Source: Planctomycetota bacterium
GTDB lineage: Bacteria; Planctomycetota; Planctomycetia; Planctomycetales; Planctomycetaceae
Direction: 5' to 3'
Assembly (NCBI GenBank): GCA_027618475.1
Contig: JAQCEJ010000056.1
Coordinates: 1-33,910 of the forward strand
DNA: 33,910 nucleotides
Below the pieces are notes generated by a model, which was not told the origin of the DNA, did not search any database, and saw only the letters and a program-made list of their open reading frames with translations. Positions 3,055 through 32,757 of this stretch are shown here, piece by piece. The stretch's first letter is position 1, and each line of letters begins with the position of its first letter. Made by a program: the position numbers and the translations under genes.

Positions 3055-4347
3055 TTAGCGCGGTGCGTTTCGCCACCAGCGGAGTTCGAGCGATCCTCTG
3101 ACTCGGCTGGAACCATCGTCGGACGTGCCCGCGAGATCGACTCGTCCGTCACCGTCGAGATCGGCGGCGATGATCTGATTGGCAGCGAGCCATTCCTCTT
3201 TAACGATATGCTTCGTCCACTCCTGGCGAGGATTGCCTCCATTCTCGAACCAGACGACCTGGTCTCCTTTGGCCCAACTCGACGCAGCGATATCGACGTC
3301 CCCGTCATTATCGAAGTCGGTCGCAATAGCCTCGAAGGCGAACGGCATCGGGCCGACGGTGTGTTTCATCCATTCGGTCCCTTGACCTTGTTCACCGACG
3401 TTTTCATACCACACGACGACATGGAGTTCGGGCGGGAGCAACGTATCGCGCATTCCCTGGGCGATGACGACGTCGGTATCGCCGTCGCCATCAACGTCTG
3501 CGGGATGACCTTGAATCTGCGCCCGGCCGGTGTCGTCGATAATATGCTTGGTCCAGGTGTCGGTTTTGGGATTGGCCGGGTTCTCATACCAGGCCAGATA
3601 CGAGACATGCTGATTGATGTCGGTTACATCGGCCGGAACTTTTTCGGCCCCGACCGATGCACCGAGGATGTCGGGCTTGCCGTCGAAGTTCATGTCGACG
3701 ACCGCCACCGTGCGGGCTTCGGGCATTTTGTCGTCGATGATGTAACGCGTCCATTCGTTGTCCCATCCCTTCGGACCGGGGTTCTCGAACCACGTCATCA
3801 ATCCGCTCGCGTAACCGCAAGCGGAGGCATCGAGGTCGCCGTCCCCATCGATGTCCGTGAGCACCACATCGTACGCCCGCGGACAATTCGTCGAGATCAC
3901 GTAACGTTCCCACGTGCCGGCTTTCGGGTGCTCGGGGTTGGCGTACCACGTGAGCTGACCGTCGCGTTTATTCACGATGGCAATATCGGCGCGGCCATCG
4001 CCGTTGATGTCGCCGTAGGTATGCCGTTCAAACCAACCCGTTTCGTTTTCGTGGATGAGATGGCGTGTGAACGATCCTTTGCCGTCGTTTTCATACCAGT
4101 ACAGATCCGACTGTTGCTTGGCTCCACGAACGTCGCCGCTCGAGAGATCGAGATCGCCGTCTCCATCAAAATCGGTGGCGGAGAGCCCGAACGCATACGT
4201 ATATTTGTCGGAGATCAAGTGTTCTTCAAAGTTGACCGGGGATGACGTCGATGGCGTGGCATCATCGCCAGACAATTCATGACCCGCGATGCAGAGAACG
4301 ATTGAAATTGTCAGACCCCACGAAATCGGAATTAAATTCCTATACAT
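3055..4347 (-). CDS. Secreted FG-GAP/VCBS-repeat seven-bladed propeller protein
   Basis: This 430-residue protein starts with a signal peptide (MYRNLIPISWGLTISIVLCI to about residue 27). An AGGAG lies six bases before the ATG on the minus strand. Seven calcium-loop motifs of the DxDxDG type follow at regular spacing: DFDGDGDLD, DINGDGRAD, DIDGDGDLD, DMNFDGKPD, DVDGDGDTD, DFDNDGDVD and DLDGDGRVD. Between them are repeated strands of the type WYEN/WFENPG and 'W-x-KHII-DD'. This matches an integrin-alpha-like FG-GAP beta-propeller, likely periplasmic or extracellular and calcium-stabilised. It is a paralogue of the protein at 19984-21210. No catalytic domain is attached, so binding is more likely than catalysis, but the ligand cannot be told. 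Confidence 0.88.
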   Translation of the reverse strand: MYRNLIPISWGLTISIVLCIAGHELSGDDATPSTSSPVNFEEHLISDKYTYAFGLSATDFDGDGDLDLSSGDVRGAKQQSDLYWYENDGKGSFTRHLIHENETGWFERHTYGDINGDGRADIAIVNKRDGQLTWYANPEHPKAGTWERYVISTNCPRAYDVVLTDIDGDGDLDASACGYASGLMTWFENPGPKGWDNEWTRYIIDDKMPEARTVAVVDMNFDGKPDILGASVGAEKVPADVTDINQHVSYLAWYENPANPKTDTWTKHIIDDTGRAQIQGHPADVDGDGDTDVVIAQGMRDTLLPPELHVVVWYENVGEQGQGTEWMKHTVGPMPFAFEAIATDFDNDGDVDIAASSWAKGDQVVWFENGGNPRQEWTKHIVKEEWLAANQIIAADLDGDGRVDLAGTSDDGSSRVRGSLELRWWRNAPR

Positions 4348-5414: not shown

Positions 5415-6002
5415 TCAGAGCTTCTTCTCCAGCGCCAACTGATGAAAGAAGTGCGGCACATTTTCCTGGTTTTTCAGCAACCAGTCGATCGTCGGCTCAT
5501 TGTTCATCGCTTTGCGAATCGCTTTCGCCGTCGCTTCGCGATTGGTTTTGAACAGGATTTCGGGATCGATCTCGGTCGTCGTGACGCTCGGATCGAGCCA
5601 AGTCGACACAATGATGCCGAGATCGTTCGCTTTGCTCTTGGGGATATCCCCCGCTCGGACGGCGTCGAGCACGCCATGAGCGATGGCGGCTTGCACCGTC
5701 CCCATCAAGATGTTGGTGTACTTCTCGTTATCGACGGTCACTTTGCTGACCATCACCGTCGTCGGCCGCACCTGCACGTCGCAGTTGAGTATCGCGAAGA
5801 CGCGGGTGTGTCCCTTCACTTGTCCGCCGATAAGATTGGCGATGGCATAACCGACCGGGCCGTCGAGTTCGCCGATGACGACCTCCGGCTCCGCCGCTGA
5901 CCAGCTCGGTTCGGCCTCGACCAGCGCTTCACCCGTTCGCAGCACAATGCGGCCCGGTTTGGTTTTCTTGGCAGATTTCGACGCAGTTTTCTTCTTGGCC
6001 AT
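5415..6002 (-). CDS. fae: Formaldehyde-activating enzyme (Fae) family protein
   Basis: This 195-residue protein has a Lys-rich head (~1-17) and then a Fae-like domain: GEALVEAE near residue 24, DGPVGYAIANLI near 47, KGHTRVFAILNCDVQVRPTTVMVSKVTVDN near 63-92, GTVQAAIAHGVLDAVRAGDIPK and NREATAKAIRKAM. Fae condenses formaldehyde with tetrahydromethanopterin in C1 oxidation, a pathway known in planctomycetes. True Fae enzymes have a conserved His in a NEVAH-type motif after GEALVGDG; here the matching place reads AAEPEVVIG, with no His. It may therefore be a non-catalytic or altered paralogue (Fae2/Fae3-like), and the assignment is to the family, not the reaction. The unrecognised gene upstream ends 40 bp before this start, so the two are probably co-transcribed. 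Confidence 0.82.
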   Translation of the reverse strand: MAKKKTASKSAKKTKPGRIVLRTGEALVEAEPSWSAAEPEVVIGELDGPVGYAIANLIGGQVKGHTRVFAILNCDVQVRPTTVMVSKVTVDNEKYTNILMGTVQAAIAHGVLDAVRAGDIPKSKANDLGIIVSTWLDPSVTTTEIDPEILFKTNREATAKAIRKAMNNEPTIDWLLKNQENVPHFFHQLALEKKL

Positions 6003-8757: not shown

Positions 8758-9795
8758 GTGTGCGTCATGGACCGTCAGAAAGAGCCGATGGATGTCGAAC
8801 GAATTCTCTGCTTCGATGCAACAACCGGCGATGTGCTCTGGTCACATTCATGGCCCGTTGACTATTCGGGTGTGGCGTATGACAACGGACCACGAGCGAC
8901 GCCGACGATTTACCAGGGTCGAGTTTACACCCTAGGGGCGGTCGGGCACTTGCTCTGTCTGGACGGAGCGAGTGGCGAAGTCATCTGGTCGAAGGATCTT
9001 GTCAAAGATTTCGGAGCCCGCGTACCATTGTGGGGACTCAGCGCGTCGCCGGTGATTTTCGACTCGCTGGTGATCGTACACCCCGGTGCGGAACCGGAAG
9101 GGTGTTTCATCGCCTTCGACCGGATGACTGGTGACGAGGTCTGGAGGAATTTTTCAGACGGGGCCGGCTACGCCACTCCAATGATGATCGAGTACGAAAA
9201 TAAGCCACAAATGGTCGCGTGGACACCGACAAACATCCGCGGATTAGAACCAACAACCGGACAACTTCTCTGGTCAGTTCCGTTCGAAGTCAACTACGGC
9301 ACGTCGATCGCCGACCCGATCTATCACGAAGGATTGGTGCTCGTCAGTAGTTACTACGAAGGGAGTCAGGCGATTCGTATATCCAACGGAACAACCGAAC
9401 CGGACGTTGTCTGGCACGACGAGCGCAACCTTCGTGGTCTGATGTCACAACCGTTGTACCGCGACGGTTACGCCTATCTCATCGATAAGCGATCCGGCCT
9501 GACCTGTTTTGAATTGGCGACAGGAACCAAAATCTGGGACGATGATAATCGTATGACGCCGAAGGGACGCAATCCGCAGGCGACGATGGTCTGGTTGAGC
9601 GACGAAGACCGTGCCGTCGTGCTCAATTCCGATGGCGACCTGATACTCATCCGCCTCAACCCAATGGGATACAACGAAGACTCTCGGACGAAGATCATTG
9701 AGACGACATGGGCTCATCCGGCGTATTCTGGAAACTGCGTATATGCTCGAAGCGATAACGAAATCGTGTGTGTTGTGTTGCCTGGCAGAGAATGA
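8758..9795 (+). pseudogene. PQQ-like beta-propeller, downstream part of the interrupted FGE-PQQ gene
   Basis: The frame is the same as in the upstream FGE part and is open from 8698; ATG 8758 is only the first Met after the TAA. From 8698 the sequence reads QDWRADLGGGYGGISVSNGR, the normal continuation of the first propeller blade. Further blades follow: ILCFDATTGDVLWSHSWP, HLLCLDGASGEVIWSKDL, CFIAFDRMTGDEVWRNF, GLEPTTGQLLWSVPF, GLTCFELATGTKIWDDDN and VVLNSDGDLILIRL. Such PQQ-like proteins are usually periplasmic propellers, and the repeats lack evidence of a true dehydrogenase centre. If translation restarts at 8758 the product would lack a signal peptide and its first strands. No good ribosome binding site precedes 8758. 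The stop could also be a sequencing error or a readthrough site. Confidence 0.75.
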
Positions 9796-9809
9796 GGCCG
9801 AAGAGCATA

Positions 9810-9827
9810 AATCTGACTGGTCAGATT
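9810..9827. promoter_or_regulatory. Perfect 8-bp inverted repeat, possible operator
   Basis: AATCTGAC-TG-GTCAGATT is a perfect palindrome with a 2-bp spacer. It lies 15 bp after the propeller stop codon and 29 bp before the channel gene's ATG (9856). It has no T-run, so an operator or an RNA hairpin is more likely than a terminator. No cognate regulator is visible in the window. Confidence 0.35.
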
Positions 9828-9855
9828 GACGCCTTTGAGTTATTGTACGCGCGCT

Positions 9856-11910
9856 ATGTACTCTCCATCCCGTCGATTTCCGCGTACCGACATTTTTATT
9901 GTCATTTTCTCGCTCTTTGCACTGCTTGTGCCTTCACCGAGCAGAACAGCTGTCTTTTCGCAGGACAAGGCAGCCGAGACACCTAAAGTCGAAGTTCCTC
10001 CCACCAATCCGGTGGAACAATTCACTGTCGCCGACCTTGAAGCAAGGATCAAGCAGGTCGAAGAATCGACCGATCTTGATGCCGAAGCCAAGAAGAAAAT
10101 CACCGATCCACTTCGAAGTGCGATCGGGCAGATTCAGCGGATGGAAATGCTGCGGAAGCAGGCCGATGAGTTCCAGGCCGCCGTGAACGAAGTCCAAGAG
10201 CGCGTAAAATCCATTCGCGCCGACATCGAATCGCTCAAGACACAGGAACCCGAGAAACCGGATAATCTGCCGCTCCCTGAATTGGAGCAACTGCTTGCTA
10301 CGAAAAACCTGTTGTTGCAGGACCAAAAATCGACTCAGGCTCAATTGGAGTCAGAACCCGCAAAACGAGCAGGACGGCGAAAAGAGCTTCGCGAGAATCT
10401 GATGAAGATTCCCTCTCAATTAGAGGAGATCAAACAAAAGTTAAAGGTGCCCCCTCCCGAAAACGAACCGGCACTTGTCACTCAGGCTCAACAGGCCGAC
10501 TTGTTGACCCGACGCAGGTTGCTGGAGCTGGAATCGGTGGTTGGCCAACATGAGTTCACGAAATACGACTCAGAGGACGCAGCCGACCTGAACAGCTTCC
10601 GTCGCGACAGGCAAGTTCTTCAGATCAAGAAGACACAAGCCGAAATCGATCTGATCAAATCGGCAGTTCAGCAAAAACGAGAAATTGAGACCCAGGTTGC
10701 GGTTGCCAGAGCGCAGAAGGAAATGATTGGCGCTTTACCGGCGCTGAAGCCTTACTTCGAGGAAAACGAACGGCTCGCTCAAGAGGCGAAAACGCTGAAC
10801 GAGTTGAACCTCAAAACGGAAGCCAACCGGCAACAGGCCCAACAACGCCTCGAAAAATTGCGCGAACAAATTGCGCAGACAAAGAGAAAGGTCGATGCCG
10901 TCGGCCTGACGGGATCCGTTGGCCTGCTATTGCGAAAAGAACGCAACGAACTGCCGAACGTCAGCCGTGCCGAACAAAGCATTGCCGCTCGCCGTCAGAT
11001 TATCGACGATACACAATTTGCCAGTCTCGAATACAACGATCGGAAAAATGACCTGACGGACCTCGATCCGCATATCGAGAAAATTCTCGCTTCCGTTGAT
11101 TTGTCAGGCGACGATGCAGAACAAAGCTTACTTAAAGATGAGACGCAAAAATTTCTCGAAAGTCAACGCACCAATCTCGATCTTCTGTTGCGAAATTATG
11201 ATGTCTATTTCAAGTCGCTGCTCGAACTCGATACCACCGAACAGGAACTCGTATCGCTGGCGACTGAATACCGCACATATATTGACGAACGGGTACTCTG
11301 GATTCGCAGTGCCAAACCGCTCTATGCCGACTTCGAACTCGATCAAGCCGATTTAAAATGGCTGCAGTTACGGTCGTGGAAAAATCTTGCCCACTTTATG
11401 TTGGCCGACGTCGTATCGGCACCTGTCATCTATTTATCGGCATTATTGATGTTTGGCGCGCTGTTACACGTGGGCCGGCAGCTTCGCCGCGACCTGACAG
11501 ACCTGGCGAAGTCCGCCGAGCGGAGTTCTTGCATCGTATTCCTGCCGACAGTTCAAGCAATGATCCTCACGCTGGTTATTTCGTTGCCTGCACCGGGCCT
11601 GTTATTTTTTCTCAGTTGGCGGTTGAAAGCGATTTCAGATCAGGATCAACTGGTACAGGGTTTGAGTTCTGGCTTTTTCGTTATCTCCGTGATTTACGTG
11701 TTAAACGAAATCGTCCGACAAATGTGCAGACCGCGCGGACTGGCTGAATCGCATTTCGACTGGCCGACATCGGTGTGTGTCGATATCCACAAATCATTAC
11801 CTAACCTGCCTCATGAATTTCGGACACTCGGAAGTAAGATTATGATGATCATTTTCAAGGAGTGTCTGACATGGTCAAAGGGAAACGTTACGATCGAGAA
11901 TTTCAATTGA
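9856..11910 (+). pseudogene. MscK/MscM-type mechanosensitive channel, 5' part, interrupted by an IS3-family element
   Basis: Start ATG 9856 gives MYSPSRRFPRTDIFIVIFSL, a signal peptide; a TTG at 9826 is an alternative. Residues ~45-440 are charged and heptad-rich (many Gln/Glu/Lys/Leu runs), a long periplasmic coiled-coil domain as in MscK (KefA) and MscM. Three hydrophobic segments follow (ALLMFGALLHVG, MILTLVISLPAPGLLFFLSW, SSGFFVISVIYVLNE). The native gene ends at 11801, where the insertion element begins; the last ~35 codons to TGA 11910 are element sequence. The other half is at 13078-14611. Joining 9856-11801 to 13078-14611 gives one frame of 1160 codons, close to the ~1110-1120 residues of E. 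coli MscK and MscM. In the cell this family relieves osmotic down-shock by opening under membrane tension. Confidence 0.88.
11802..11834 (+). repeat. Left terminal inverted repeat of the IS3-family element
   Basis: This 33-bp end matches the right end at 13042-13074 in reverse complement, with mismatches at positions 2, 13 and 32. It begins TA instead of the TG usual at IS3 ends, so the outermost pair is imperfect. The 3-bp duplication ACC sits immediately outside, at 11799-11801. Confidence 0.85.
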
Positions 11911-12158
11911 ATGCGGCTCGTCTGGTGGTCGAGCAGGGGTATTCTGTCGCCGAAGTCTCTCGCAAGCTGGGTGTCGCGAACTGGTCGATCTCGCGGTGGA
12001 TCGTGCGGTTTCGCGAACGCGGCGAGCTGAAGGTCGACAATCAGGCTGTCGCCGAGGCCGACGAGCTGCGGGAACTCCGCAAGCAGAACCAGCAACTTAA
12101 GCTCGAAGTTGAAATCCTAAAAAAAGCGGCGGCGTACTTTGCGAAGGAGTCGCTGTAA
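11871..12158 (+). CDS. IS3-family transposase OrfA
   Basis: I start this 95-residue protein at ATG 11871, eight bases after AAGGAG (11857-11862); an in-frame GTG at 11862 overlaps that site. The N-terminal helix-turn-helix is clear (YDREFQLNAARLVVEQGYS, then AEVSRKLGVANWSISRWIVRF), and a leucine-zipper-like stretch follows (ELRELRKQNQQLKLEVEILKK). In IS3 elements OrfA binds the terminal repeats and multimerises through the zipper, and it is also the N-terminus of the OrfAB fusion transposase. An A7 run near its end provides the slip into the OrfB frame. It ends in KESL at TAA 12156-12158. Confidence 0.93.
   Translation: MVKGKRYDREFQLNAARLVVEQGYSVAEVSRKLGVANWSISRWIVRFRERGELKVDNQAVAEADELRELRKQNQQLKLEVEILKKAAAYFAKESL
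12119..12125 (+). promoter_or_regulatory. Programmed -1 frameshift site (A7) for OrfAB
   Basis: Seven A residues followed by G lie within the EILKKAAA codons of OrfA. OrfA is in frame 3 and OrfB in frame 2, so a -1 slip here joins them. The OrfB frame is open from 12125 through to its stop. A-rich heptamers of this kind are the standard frameshift signal in IS3-family elements. Confidence 0.7.
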
Positions 12159-13036
12159 AGTACGCCTGGATCGAAAAGCATCGCGACCAATACCCCGTCC
12201 GCACGCTCTGCCGGGTGCTCGGCGTCAGCGCCAGCGGTTATTATCACTGGCGAGGGCGCAAGCCGAGTTCGCAAGCGCAGCAGCGCGAACAGATCCGTGA
12301 GGCCGTGCGCGAATCACATCGCGAGAGCGACGGCATCTACGGTTATCGCAAAGTCCACGAAGACCTCCAGGAGCAAAATATGCACTGCTGCCTCGAATCG
12401 GTACGGCGGGCCATGCGCAAACAAGGCTTGTTTTCCAGGGTCAAACGCAAGTTCGTGGTCACCACCGATTCGAATCATCACTTTCCTGTGGCCGAGAATC
12501 TGCTCGATCGAGATTTCGAAGCCACCGCACCCGACCAGAAATGGGGAGTTGATATCACCTACATCCGCACGGCCGAAGGCTGGTTGTACCTGGCCATTGT
12601 GATGGACCTGTTCTCACGCCGCATCGTCGGCTGGGCCACATCCTCCTCGGTCGATACCGCGCTCGTCAGGAATGCTTTACAGAAAGCTATTGCTCAACGG
12701 AATCCTCCTCCAGGACTCATGCATCACAGCGATCGCGGCAGCCAGTACGCCTCCGATGCCTACGGAGACCTGCTGGCCACACGACTGTTCGTCCGCAGCA
12801 TGAGTCGCAAAGGGAACTGCTGGGACAATGCACCCGTCGAAAGTTTTTTCGGCAAACTCAAAACTGAATGGATGACCGAAAAAGAATATCAATCGCACGA
12901 ACACGCTCAAATGGAACTCTTCAAGTACATCGAAATGTTCTACAATCGAAAACGACGACACGCCGCGTTAAACTATCAAACACCCGTCGACTTCGAACGA
13001 CTGCACCAAATCAACAACGCCAAACTCGCGTCTTAA
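12125..13036 (+). CDS. IS3-family transposase OrfB (DDE integrase domain)
   Basis: OrfB reads in the -1 frame of OrfA. Conserved residues (KYAWIEKHRDQYPVRTLCRV) precede GTG 12215, and the frame has no good start of its own, so expression through frameshifting at 12119-12125 is most likely. The HTH_21-like part (YGYRKVHEDLQ) is followed by the rve integrase core: WGVDITYI (first Asp), HHSDRGSQY (second Asp) and WDNAPVESFFGKLKTE (Glu), a full DDE set, then FYNRKRRHAALNYQTPVDFE. It catalyses cutting and joining of the element ends. It ends in TAA 13034-13036, six bases before the right inverted repeat. No disruption is visible. Confidence 0.93.
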   Translation, partial: SGGVLCEGVAVKYAWIEKHRDQYPVRTLCRVLGVSASGYYHWRGRKPSSQAQQREQIREAVRESHRESDGIYGYRKVHEDLQEQNMHCCLESVRRAMRKQGLFSRVKRKFVVTTDSNHHFPVAENLLDRDFEATAPDQKWGVDITYIRTAEGWLYLAIVMDLFSRRIVGWATSSSVDTALVRNALQKAIAQRNPPPGLMHHSDRGSQYASDAYGDLLATRLFVRSMSRKGNCWDNAPVESFFGKLKTEWMTEKEYQSHEHAQMELFKYIEMFYNRKRRHAALNYQTPVDFERLHQINNAKLAS

Positions 13037-13041
13037 CTGTG

Positions 13042-13074
13042 CCTCCGAGTGTCCGAAATTCGTGAGGCAGGTCA
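13042..13074 (-). repeat. Right terminal inverted repeat of the IS3-family element
   Basis: This is the 33-bp partner of 11802-11834, in reverse complement, and reads inward from TGACCTGCC. The target duplication ACC follows at 13075-13077. A GTG at 13049 inside this repeat is in frame with the downstream channel fragment. Confidence 0.88.
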
Positions 13075-13077
13075 ACC

Positions 13078-14611
13078 GCGTCTGTTTGTGTTGATGTTGC
13101 CTCTCGTGCTCGTCATTCACACCCTGCAAGCGGCCGATCCGCTCCACGGACAGGATGTGCTCGAACGGGTTGCGTTTATGCTGGTGATCGCGATCGTCGG
13201 TTGGTTTCTGCACCGTTTGCTGCGATCGGAAGGAAACGTGTTCCGCGAGTACCGTGCATTGTATTCGGGGGGATGGATCGACCGGCTTGGCCCCTTCTGG
13301 TCCTGGCTCGGAATCAGTCTTGTGGTGACGATCATCGGACTGAGTTTCTTCGGCTATCATTACACGGCACGCCAAATCGCCTTTAAGTTGTTCGTTTCGT
13401 TCGAATTGCTCGTGGCGATGATTATTTTGCGTTCGGCCATTTTTCGCGCCATATTAGTCATGGGGCGGCGAGTCAGTATCAACGAATCGCGCCAACGGGC
13501 AATGAATGCCGCACAAGAATCTCAGCAGGCCAGCACAGCGGGCCTCTCGCCGAGCAAGATCGCGCCGGAAACTACCCAGCGATTTGACGTCAGCGCGAAC
13601 ATTGCACAGTTTAAACGCATAGTTTCCACCATGCTGCTAATGTGTAATCTCATCGGCTTATGGTTTATCTGGAGCGAAGTCTTTCCGGCTATCAACCAAC
13701 TTAATCGATGGGAAATCGGATCGACATCAGTTTTGGTGACAGAGCAGGTTCCGGATGGAAAGGAAGGTACGGTCACAAATACAAAAGAACTCATCGAACC
13801 AGTGACAGTCGTCGATCTGGGAATGGCGATCCTGATAGGCATCGTGACATTTGTCGCTTCGCGAAATGTGCCAGGTATGCTGGAAATGGCACTGTTGCAG
13901 CGATTGCCTCTGGATAATTCGGTCCGGTATGCCATCACAACGCTGGCACGATACTTCATCATCGTATTCGGCATCATTTTTGGTTTTAATCTTCTGGGAC
14001 TGGGTTGGTCGCAGGTGCAATGGCTGGTAACCGCCCTCACGTTCGGGCTCGCGTTTGGCCTGCAGGAAATCTTTGCCAACTTCGTTGCAGGATTAATTCT
14101 TCTTTTCGAGCGGCCTATTCGCATAGGAGATATCGTCACGGTTGATGACGTCAGCGGTGTCGTCTCAAAAATCCGCATGCGGGCAACCACCATTTCAAAT
14201 TGGGATCGCAAAGAATTCATCGTCCCTAATAAAGACTTGATCACCGGTCGTTTACTCAACTGGACTCTTTCCGACCAGATCAACCGTGTCATCATTAACG
14301 TCGGAATTGCCTATGGCTCTGATGCATCACTGGCGACAGAATTACTGCTCAAAACGGCTAATGAACATCCGCTGATCCTTACCGATCCTCCGCCGATGGC
14401 AACCTTCGAGAGTTTTGGTGACAATTCTCTGAACCTGGTTTTGCGCTGCTTTCTGCCGAACTTGAATAACCGCCTGGTCGCGACCGACGAACTCCACAAG
14501 GCAATTTACAAGACCTTTGCTGACGCTGGCATCGAGATTTCGTTTCCGCAGCGGGATATTCATATTCGCAGCTTGCCGCCCGGATTTCCTGAAATGCCGA
14601 AATCGTCATAA
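13078..14611 (+). pseudogene. MscK/MscM-type mechanosensitive channel, 3' part after the IS
   Basis: The fragment continues the frame of 9856-11801 exactly (Leu-Pro-Arg-Leu across the junction). It carries most of the membrane part: at least six hydrophobic segments (such as LVLVIHTLQ, ERVAFMLVIAIVGWF, WSWLGISLVVTIIGLSFFG and MAILIGIVTFVASRNV). The MscS pore region follows: LARYFIIVFGIIFGFNLLGL, then TALTFGLAFGLQEIFANFVAGLILLFERPIRIGDIV. The cytoplasmic MscS beta and alpha/beta domains (VSGVVSKIRMRATTISNWDRKEFIVPNKDL to the end) are complete. Translation could begin at GTG 13049 in the IS right end, which is in frame, and would give a 520-residue MscS-like protein without the periplasmic coiled coil. 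No strong ribosome binding site supports this. Confidence 0.88.
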
Positions 14612-14640
14612 CCGTGAGTTAAGAACCCGTCTTCGGAATC

Positions 14641-14656
14641 CATCTCATGTGAGATG
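14641..14656. promoter_or_regulatory. 7-bp inverted repeat upstream of the acetamidase gene
   Basis: CATCTCA-TG-TGAGATG is a perfect inverted repeat 29 bp after the channel gene stop. A second, wider pair lies downstream (GATAGAGA at 14684-14691 and TCTCTATC at 14727-14734). There is no T-run for a terminator. An operator or structured leader for the acetamidase gene at 14804 is possible. Confidence 0.3.
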
Positions 14657-14803
14657 ACTCTCTTCAACAGCACAAACCTTTTCGATAGAGAATCATTGGT
14701 GCTTTGCTCTGTGGAATTGGTCATACTCTCTATCACTAACAGCTTACATATGATGAGCCTCCGTAACGTCTTTTTCAATCGATTATGATAGGGGATCGAC
14801 ATC

Positions 14804-16171
14804 ATGAAAACTCCCGTTGCTGCTACACCTTCATCGAATCACCTCGCATCTATGGAGTCATCACATCCAGGCGTACAAACAATTTACGTCAACGAGTTCA
14901 CCGACGCCGTCCTCGACCCCACGCGTCCGATGCTTGGACCCGTGCAGGACGGCGGTTACATCATCGCGAACACGGCCCCCGGTTGCTGGGGGCCGATGAT
15001 CACGCCTCAACTTCGCGGCGGTCACGAGGTGACGAAGCCGGTCGCCGTGGCAGGAGCCGACGTCGGCGATGCGATCGTCATTCGCATCAAGGAAATTACC
15101 ATCACATCGAAGGCCACCTCGTCTGGGACCGATCAACCACTCGAAGGACGATACTTGGGAGACCCGTTTGTTGCGGCGAAGTGCCCCGATTGCGGTGCCA
15201 TGAATCCCCCAACGAAACGGGACGGCATTGGTAAATCGGCCATTCGTTGTGCGAACTGCGGTGCCGATGCGACACCGTTTCATATCAGCCACGGCTATAC
15301 GATTGCTTTCGATGAGCAGCACACAATGGGAGTCACCGTCGATCAGCCCGCCGCTGATAAAATGGCTCACGATGCCGCTCATTATGCGGCGTTGCCGGCG
15401 AATTCGATTCAAAATTCCATCTTGACCTTTGCACCGCACGACCTCGTCGGTGTCCCCGCACGATTGCGGCCGTTTCTTGGTCAGTTGGGAACAACTCCCG
15501 GCGTGGCCATGCCCGACTCGCATAACGCCGGTGATTTCGGCATGTTCCTCATCGGGGCACCGCACGAACTCGCGCTGACAACCGAACAACTCAACCAGCG
15601 CACCGACGGTCATATGGACATTGACGCTGTTCGAGCCGGGGCGATTCTTGTCTGCCCAGTGAAAACGGCCGGTGGCGGCCTTTACATGGGGGACATGCAT
15701 GCCATGCAAGGAGACGGCGAGATCGCCGGTCACACATGCGACGTGGCCGGCCTGGTTACACTACAAGTGCATCTGCTCAAATCGCTAGATATTGACGGGC
15801 CGATCTTGTTTCCCGTCGTCGACGATTTGCCATATCTGGCGAAGCCGTTTTCCGGAGAAGAAAAGTCGCGCGCACGCAATATCGCCAAACAGCAGGGTTT
15901 GAATGACATCGAAGAGACGCTGCCGATCTCGGTGATTGGTACCGGCGGCAATTTGAATGTCGCGACCGACAACGGCCTCGTCCGTGCCGCGAAGCTCCTC
16001 GATATGACAGTTCCCGAAGTCCGTAACCGCGCCACCATCGCCGGTGCCATCGAAATCGGCCGGCACCCCGGCGTCGTGCAGGTGACGTTCCACGCGCCGG
16101 TAGAAAAATTGAGTGCGTGTGGATTGTTACCGTACGCGGTTGAACAATATGGTGATGTCGATCCGGTCTAA
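14804..16171 (+). CDS. Acetamidase/formamidase family protein with zinc-ribbon insert
   Basis: This 455-residue protein starts at ATG 14804 behind AGGGGAT. It matches the long form of the FmdA/AmdA family: PVAVAGADVGDAIVIRIKEI, PDSHNAGDFG, TDGHMDIDAVRAGAILVCPVKTAGGGLYMGDMHAMQGDGE, then AGHTCDVAG. These enzymes hydrolyse short amides to the acid and ammonia, but the substrate of this subgroup is not known. Two CxxC pairs (Cys127/130 and Cys149/152) about 20 residues apart form a probable zinc ribbon. No signal peptide is seen, so it should be cytoplasmic. It faces a nitrilase-family gene 46 bp away, and a second, shorter member of the same family lies at 31831-32757. Confidence 0.87.
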   Translation: MKTPVAATPSSNHLASMESSHPGVQTIYVNEFTDAVLDPTRPMLGPVQDGGYIIANTAPGCWGPMITPQLRGGHEVTKPVAVAGADVGDAIVIRIKEITITSKATSSGTDQPLEGRYLGDPFVAAKCPDCGAMNPPTKRDGIGKSAIRCANCGADATPFHISHGYTIAFDEQHTMGVTVDQPAADKMAHDAAHYAALPANSIQNSILTFAPHDLVGVPARLRPFLGQLGTTPGVAMPDSHNAGDFGMFLIGAPHELALTTEQLNQRTDGHMDIDAVRAGAILVCPVKTAGGGLYMGDMHAMQGDGEIAGHTCDVAGLVTLQVHLLKSLDIDGPILFPVVDDLPYLAKPFSGEEKSRARNIAKQQGLNDIEETLPISVIGTGGNLNVATDNGLVRAAKLLDMTVPEVRNRATIAGAIEIGRHPGVVQVTFHAPVEKLSACGLLPYAVEQYGDVDPV

Positions 16172-30688: not shown

Positions 30689-31834
30689 ATGAAGCATCAA
30701 TTCCCATCACCGCTCGCAGCACGATTCACGCCGCATGGTCGTGGAGCCGTTGCATCAATTCGTTTGCGAGGAGAACCAGGTCATGTGAGACCTATCCTCT
30801 CTCAACATTTCCAACCGCGCGGCGATCGCGATTTGTTCGGCACCATCGGTGAGATTCGTTACGGTAAATGGGGAATAGACCGCGCCGAAGATGTTGTCGT
30901 CTGCCACGTCGACGAGATGAGTTGGGAAATCCATTGTCACGGCGGTTTTGTCGCTTCTCAACGTATTCTTACCGACCTCGAAGCCTCCGGCGTGACGGTC
31001 GTTCCCTGGCATGAGTTGTTCGCCGTTGAAGCAGGCACTTTGGAAGCTGAATTTCGTCAATTGCTTTCGAAAACCACCACACTGAAAACCGCGGAATATG
31101 TCTTGCGGCAAGCGAACGGATTGTTCGCCGGTGAGATCAAGTCCCTACGCGACGCGATCATAAGCGGCCAGAATTATCCACATTGCATCGATCGTCTCCG
31201 CGAAATGTTGAGGTGGTCGACATTCGGCCGCCGATTGACGCAACCCGCAAACGTTGTGATCGCCGGTCGGCCGAACGTCGGCAAATCGTCGCTGATCAAT
31301 GCACTGCTCGGCTACACGCGGTCGATCGTCTTCGACCAGCCGGGAACCACACGGGACGTCGTCACCGCCGAAACCGCCTTCAATGGCTGGCCCGTCGCTC
31401 TCACCGACACCGCCGGAATTCATGAAACGACGAATCATCTGGAACAATCCGGCATCGAACGGGCAATTGATAAACTTCGACTCGCCGATTGTCAGATAAT
31501 CCTGCTCGACCGTAGCCAGCCGCTGCATGATTTCGGCAGAGAGTTGGTGGCTCGGTTTCCTGAAGCGATCGTGGTCGTACACAAGATTGATCTATTGCCT
31601 GCATGGGACGCCAGCCAATTCGACAACCGATTAGACGTTTCTTCGAAAACCAGCGAGGGGATCGACTATTTAATCACTGCGATGGTCGATCGATTATTCT
31701 CCGATCTTCCCCCGAATGAAATGGCGATACCGATGACGGAACGGCACTGTCAGCTCATGAGGCAAGCGTTCGAGGCTCTGGAACTGAACGACGCGGCAAC
31801 CGCAACAGCGAAGCTGACTTCGCTCATTGACTAA
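30689..31834 (+). CDS. MnmE/TrmE-like GTPase lacking the C-terminal cysteine motif
   Basis: This 381-residue protein resembles MnmE but is shorter than its ~450-460. The N-terminal folate-binding-like part shows FTPHGRGAVASIRLRG (compare the ATPPGRGxVxxIRxSG of MnmE) and EIHCHGG near residue 80. The G domain has GRPNVGKSS (193-201), PGTTRD, DTAG (240-243) and HKID (298-301, in place of NKxD). MnmE ends with a conserved C(I/L)GK needed for tRNA U34 modification; this protein ends ATAKLTSLID and has no such motif. It may be a paralogue with another job or a degenerate copy. The ATG is not preceded by a strong ribosome binding site. Its stop overlaps that of the converging acetamidase gene by four bases. 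Confidence 0.82.
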   Translation: MKHQFPSPLAARFTPHGRGAVASIRLRGEPGHVRPILSQHFQPRGDRDLFGTIGEIRYGKWGIDRAEDVVVCHVDEMSWEIHCHGGFVASQRILTDLEASGVTVVPWHELFAVEAGTLEAEFRQLLSKTTTLKTAEYVLRQANGLFAGEIKSLRDAIISGQNYPHCIDRLREMLRWSTFGRRLTQPANVVIAGRPNVGKSSLINALLGYTRSIVFDQPGTTRDVVTAETAFNGWPVALTDTAGIHETTNHLEQSGIERAIDKLRLADCQIILLDRSQPLHDFGRELVARFPEAIVVVHKIDLLPAWDASQFDNRLDVSSKTSEGIDYLITAMVDRLFSDLPPNEMAIPMTERHCQLMRQAFEALELNDAATATAKLTSLID

Positions 31835-32757
31835 TTCTGCGGCAGGAAATTTTTCTCCACCATGAACCGCATCGAATACGTTGCAACCTGCATCTGACCG
31901 GGACGTAAATCACCGACAAGGTTGATGAAACTTCTGGCCTCTTTTTTCGTCCAACCGTATCGTTCACCTAACCAGAGAATCATCTCGCGCAGCGCAATCC
32001 ATTGAGCACTCTCGGCTGGGCGGTCCGCCCCAACGGTGACGAGATGGGTTGGAGTTTCGATACGGATACCGTTCTGCGAGGTTGACCAATTTTTTAACAC
32101 ATCGACCGAGAGCGTCACCTCCGATCTCATTTCACAACCACTAACTTCTCCGTCTCCCTGATAAGGGTGACAGTCGCCGAGGAATAACAACGCTCCAGGG
32201 ACACTCACCGGCAAATAGACCGTCGAACCGGGGCAAACTTCCGGTACGTCGAGGTTGCCGCCGTGCCGTGCTGCTCCCCCGGCGGTAAGGGCTTCGAGAT
32301 GTGGGGCTGTGCCAATGCAGCCGATCATTGGTCTAGTGGGGATTTTGAGCGGAAGTTTGCCCGTTGCCGTCTCGAGTTCGTAATGCACGTGGCCCTCCTT
32401 GATCTCGACAAGCTGCGTCACCGGTTCGTCGAACCAGTCCTGCATGTGATAGAGCACCGGCCAGTAGCCGAAGAACCCTTGTGTGTCGCATTTCATCTGT
32501 AAGATACGAATCGCCAGCGTGTCACCGGGCTCGGCTCCTTCTATGAAAATCGGTCCGGTGACCGGATTGCCGTAGTAGGGGCCTTTCTTCCGCAGCGAGA
32601 GTACGTATTCCGCCGTAATCGTCTCGGGCGTCCGTGTCTGCCCCGTGCGGGAATCTTCGGTTTCGACGAGAAATGTCTCCCCCGGTTTCACCGTGAGGAC
32701 CGGCTTCAGACGGTGATCGAACACATAGCTGATTTTGTCTCGCGTGACGCGCTGCAT
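31831..32757 (-). CDS. Acetamidase/formamidase family protein (short form)
   Basis: This 308-residue protein has the family's marks: VKPGETFLVETEDSRTG, GPIFIEGAEPGDTLAIRIL, IPTRPMIGCIGTAP, GGAARHGGNLDVPEVCPGSTVYLPV and GDCHPYQGDGEVSG. It lacks the zinc-ribbon insert of the longer member at 14804-16171. The expected reaction is hydrolysis of a small amide to acid and ammonia, with no signal peptide seen. The ATG lies 22 bp from a 6-bp hairpin (32779-32794) and no clear Shine-Dalgarno is visible. It converges with the MnmE-like gene (four-base CTAA overlap) and diverges from the YjhG-type dehydratase gene. Confidence 0.85.
   Translation of the reverse strand: MQRVTRDKISYVFDHRLKPVLTVKPGETFLVETEDSRTGQTRTPETITAEYVLSLRKKGPYYGNPVTGPIFIEGAEPGDTLAIRILQMKCDTQGFFGYWPVLYHMQDWFDEPVTQLVEIKEGHVHYELETATGKLPLKIPTRPMIGCIGTAPHLEALTAGGAARHGGNLDVPEVCPGSTVYLPVSVPGALLFLGDCHPYQGDGEVSGCEMRSEVTLSVDVLKNWSTSQNGIRIETPTHLVTVGADRPAESAQWIALREMILWLGERYGWTKKEARSFINLVGDLRPGQMQVATYSMRFMVEKNFLPQN

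Follow-up and report, generated by a model that had tools for sequence, protein, structure and literature searches.

The window analysed here is a 33,910-nucleotide stretch of planctomycete DNA, and within it a gene resembling those of the MscK and MscM mechanosensitive channels lies in two halves on either side of a complete insertion sequence of the IS3 family. The features of the locus are collected in Table 1.

Table 1. Features of the interrupted channel gene and of the element within it (positions in the window).
Feature	Position	Strand	Basis or remark
5′ half, MscK-like gene	9856..11801	+	PF12795, PF12794 positions 2-127, hydropathy
Target duplication ACC, left copy	11799..11801	+	3 bp, directly before element
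IS3-family insertion sequence, complete	11802..13074	+	1273 bp
Left terminal inverted repeat	11802..11829	+	28 bp, 26 matching right repeat
orfA	11871..12158	+	HTH_Tnp_1, PF01527 E 8.7e-15
A7G slippery run, orfA/orfB overlap	12119..12126	+	sequence; -1 frameshift predicted
orfB frame, DD(35)E integrase core	12119..13036	+	rve E 1.1e-26; NF033516 E 9.1e-109
Right terminal inverted repeat	13047..13074	-	28 bp
Target duplication ACC, right copy	13075..13077	+	directly after element
3′ half, MscK-like gene	13078..14611	+	PF12794 positions 128-335, PF00924, PF21082, hydropathy

The gene halves and the element between them

The 5′ half encodes a signal-peptide-like start, a periplasmic MscS_porin domain and the first part of MscS_TM, and its frame continues into the element, where it meets a stop at 11910 to give 684 residues from the ATG at 9856. 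The 3′ half encodes the remainder of MscS_TM, the MscS beta domain and the C-terminal domain (E 3.5e-22 for PF00924 and 9.7e-16 for PF21082), and its frame opens at a GTG (13049) that lies within the element. When the flanks and one ACC were joined by script, a frame of 1159 codons resulted that starts at ATG 9856, ends with the stop codon at 14609-14611, reads Leu-Pro-Arg-Leu at the join and contains no other stop. The left and right matches to the MscS_TM model (PF12794, 339 positions) abut with zero positions lost at the cut, and a simple hydropathy scan finds one signal-like segment at the N-terminus, then three more ahead of the cut and eight beyond it. PF12795 and PF12794 are divided between the halves in this genome; since relatives carry homologues of both halves in one chain (below), MscS_porin and MscS_TM can be placed upstream of the MscS core in a single polypeptide. 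The original prediction had given the same element bounds, ACC copies, Leu-Pro-Arg-Leu junction and 1159 residues, and the scripted join reproduced all of them exactly; it had also held both halves to be free of other damage, and we found neither stops nor frameshifts in them beyond the insertion itself.

The rejoined product resembles Escherichia coli MscK (KefA) and MscM in having a periplasmic porin-like domain, an MscS core at its C-terminus and 11 hydrophobic segments beyond the N-terminal one. Both halves match the NCBIfam models of MscK and MscM (PRK11281 and PRK10929) in the right order. Against the MscK equivalog model NF008438 (cut-off 991) the halves, scanned apart, score 127.2 and 410.6 bits (538 together), and because these values are far below the cut-off we regard the split gene as a distant planctomycete homologue. 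It appears from its sequence to be MscK-like but to stand at some distance from MscK proper, and it differs from its E. coli counterparts in being interrupted by the element.

The element begins TAACCTGCC... and ends ...GGCAGGTCA, with TA at its left tip and CA at its right tip. Its left end reads TAACCTGCCTCATGAATTTC... and its right end, reverse-complemented, TGACCTGCCTCACGAATTTC...; the two agree at 26 of their first 28 bases, and a repeat finder also picked up the arms as 11804-11845 and 13031-13072 (83% complementary). These inverted repeats and the short ACC duplication on both sides are those expected of the IS3 family, as is the transposase: the orfB product scores 364 bits against the NCBIfam model NF033516 (cut-off 160), and its DD(35)E catalytic residues are encoded at 12551 (D), 12731 (D) and 12839 (E). 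orfA could start at the ATG at 11871 or at a GTG at 11862 (98 codons), and orfB overlaps it in a frame offset by -1 at the slippery run, where frameshifting is predicted from the sequence. The orfB product is 49.6-52.7% identical to the best 10 plasmid places among the matches listed, and less than 60% identical to every record among those matches (at least 5000 plasmid records). With both ends present, ACC on either side and orfA and orfB open, the element is complete, as predicted, and domains, end structure and orthologs together support an IS3-family insertion in an MscK/MscM-like gene.

The target duplication of IS2 is 5 bp long, whereas that of the present element is 3 bp. The element resembles IS2 in its general plan, with orfA and orfB joined by a -1 slippery A-run and a DDE integrase core. 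IS2 is described (PMC3299598) as having TA at its left tip, CA at its right tip and a left end that acts as the recipient end; the tip asymmetry of the present element is also that of IS2. Its slippery run is A7G, that of IS2 being given as A6G in the same source.

The gene in other genomes

We searched 59 genomes, including the one under study, with each half (match threshold E <= 0.001); none of the 58 others belongs to the same genus. The 3′ half was matched in 51 of the 59 genomes and the 5′ half in 35 (own genome included in both counts), and the two match tables were paired genome by genome. Both halves lie in one uninterrupted frame of 1111 to 1668 codons in 32 of the 34 other genomes with a 5′-half match. 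The remaining two are cut by contig ends: in G002 both halves share a 987-codon frame that is broken off there, with the rest on another contig, and in G010 the match stops where the contig does. Genomes that match the 3′ half only do so mostly weakly and through other MscS-family genes, and shorter MscS genes are present in these genomes too, as weaker matches. The original prediction named relatives with a naturally short MscS gene and no homology to the 5′ half as the finding that would speak against it, and the closest matches are not of that kind.

For the region of the join we compared 42 loci (13 from GTDB contigs and 29 from other genomes; 40 distinct sequences) over 150 residues on either side. 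All 42 align across the join, 40 of them with no gap in the five residues to either side (the exceptions are L021 and L084), and this, together with the abutting MscS_TM matches, shows that the in-frame rejoining is no coincidence; these loci were fetched by their match to the 3′ half, and so the comparison tests continuity, not frequency. From the intact frames of the relatives and the alignment across the join, we conclude that the ancestral state is a single long gene.

Two loci in this set of genomes deserve separate mention. The 3′-half homologue at L084 (G029:C172:16796-18211) has one TGA within the frame as read and may be a further MscK-like gene that is broken, unless the TGA is a sequencing error. 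At G014:C898:7392-9140 there is a second MscK-like copy whose 5′ half is read through one TAA.

Age of the insertion and the channel complement

Both ends of the element are present in the assembly only for the copy described above. When the ends were searched for as patterns with at most 3 mismatches, five places matched: both ends of this copy and one site each in contigs C186, C40 and C50 of the same genome (G000); a reversed control pattern matched nowhere. The first 70 bases of C186 (1-70, L050) match the element's left end at 70 of 70 positions and are flanked by different DNA; they mark another insertion of this element, which the assembly truncates. A frame about 40 bp beyond this left end encodes what is presumably a protein of the phytanoyl-CoA dioxygenase type. 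The C186 copy hints at recent movement, and 70 bases are too few for dating it or for establishing identity over the full element.

Other traces in the genome are shorter or more divergent. C40 holds 129 bp left over from the left end of a related element (3577-3705, L051; 80% identical), and the 7000 bases read there show no further long match to the body of the element; C160 holds a 66-bp piece (1464-1529, L004) that is 85% identical to the internal part 423-489 of the element; and C124 (4003-4031, L054) and C50 (53949-53977, L055) each hold a 29-bp piece that is 93% identical to its right end, with no long element match beside them in the stretches read. These remnants are older relics. No other complete copy of the transposase was found in the genome, where the search gave three matches, the other two being only 27% and 30% identical.

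The insertion is likely recent. The lesion-free halves, the complete element with its open frames, the intact duplication and the C186 copy with its identical 70-base left end all favour a young insertion, as the original prediction had supposed. However, the stop-free frames by themselves set only a loose bound on age: the 3474 bases have acquired no stop, which at the 95% level still allows up to about 0.021 neutral changes per site, or some 2%.

The split gene contains the only match to PF00924 in its genome, and the only matches to PF12794 are its two halves; PF05552, which is matched in 8 of 14 control genomes, has no match there. On these searches the split gene appears to be the genome's only member of the MscS family. 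A further one could lie in a gap, since the assembly is in 218 contigs despite a reported completeness of 100%. MscL is encoded once, in an open frame of 179 codons, and since the searches turned up no further gene of the MscS family, hypo-osmotic protection of the strain probably depends on this single MscL. Exactly one PF00924 match occurs in 18 of the 59 genomes (own counted) and none in 5 of the 59. Three of those five (G043, G051 and G053) have MscL, and two (G042 and G010, the latter only 79% complete) show neither; such a loss would therefore not be unprecedented in the class. If the assembly is complete, the insertion has removed the organism's last MscS-family channel, which suggests that channels of this family are dispensable to a planctomycete while it has MscL.

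Origin, consequence and alternative explanations

Very probably, an IS3-family insertion has split a full-length MscK-like gene and left what is most likely a null allele. The element would have arrived by the copy-out/paste-in route of its family, entering just before the fourth inner-membrane helix and duplicating three bases. Translation of the 5′ half would then gain 36 foreign residues and stop, and the 3′ half, with the pore and the MscS core, would be deprived of its own start and signal peptide; a truncated 5′ half and a 3′ half lacking both of these make loss of function the expected outcome. The event is an ordinary, textbook insertion-sequence knock-out, and only mildly unusual in that it seems to have hit the genome's one gene of the MscS family. 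The locus should be annotated as one interrupted gene, not as two. A narrow, all-terms search of the open-access literature found no report that brings insertion sequences together with mechanosensitive channels, a result that does not imply absence from print.

Among the other explanations, the one with the best prospects, although we consider it unlikely, is that the insertion is polymorphic, the contig representing one allele from a population or culture that is mixed and in which, as the original prediction allowed, intact alleles may persist. Insertion of the element at two or more places and the undamaged state of both gene halves would fit this, but each half matches only once in the genome, so that no second or empty-site allele was found in the assembly; this argument is weak, as assemblers may drop a minor allele. 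It is considerably less probable that the gene has been reshaped and not destroyed, its 3′ fragment (a 520-residue frame from the GTG, or a frame starting at ATG 13094) being expressed as a shortened MscS-like channel. The fragment still has the complete MscS core together with eight hydrophobic segments, and small MscS channels consist of the core plus a few helices only. Were such a channel expressed, from inside the element or next to it, the one MscS-family gene found would have been shortened instead of plainly lost, in a natural truncation experiment on MscK, though we give such an outcome very little credence. Against expression, a crude consensus scan of 9500-14900 found no outward promoter-like site on the + strand close to where the element ends on the right, and the available starts are not preceded by a clear ribosome-binding site. 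The scan found 6 promoter-like sites in total, close to the number in shuffled sequences (mean 4.1, sd 1.9), and 7 terminator-like sites against 6.2 in shuffles; with a promoter total so near that of the shuffles and a consensus so crude, low expression of the fragment is possible. On these sequence grounds expression of the 3′ fragment seems unlikely.

Two further readings were rejected. That the assembler misplaced the element into the gene has some basis in the second copy: its left end coincides with the edge of a contig, as is typical of multicopy repeats, and repeats of this kind can lead an assembler to join the wrong sequences; a misjoin would not, however, be expected to flank the element with the two halves of one gene and a matching 3-bp duplication while losing no residue, and the in-frame join and target duplication make it highly improbable. 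More improbable still is that the halves are two separate genes, the result of fission or of a naturally short gene, with the element merely lying between them: both frames are open, but MscS_TM is cut in mid-domain, and the single long frames of the relatives (all but the two contig-cut genomes) contradict it.

The window also holds several other genes. Two genes of the acetamidase/formamidase family (PF03069) are present in the contig, one directly downstream of the channel gene (14804-16171) and the other at 31831-32757, and a gene for a formaldehyde-activating enzyme (Fae) lies at 5415-6002. At 30689-31834 there is a 381-residue GTPase, shorter than an ordinary MnmE; it matches the TrmE N-terminal domain weakly, and the MnmE helical domain in part and below threshold.
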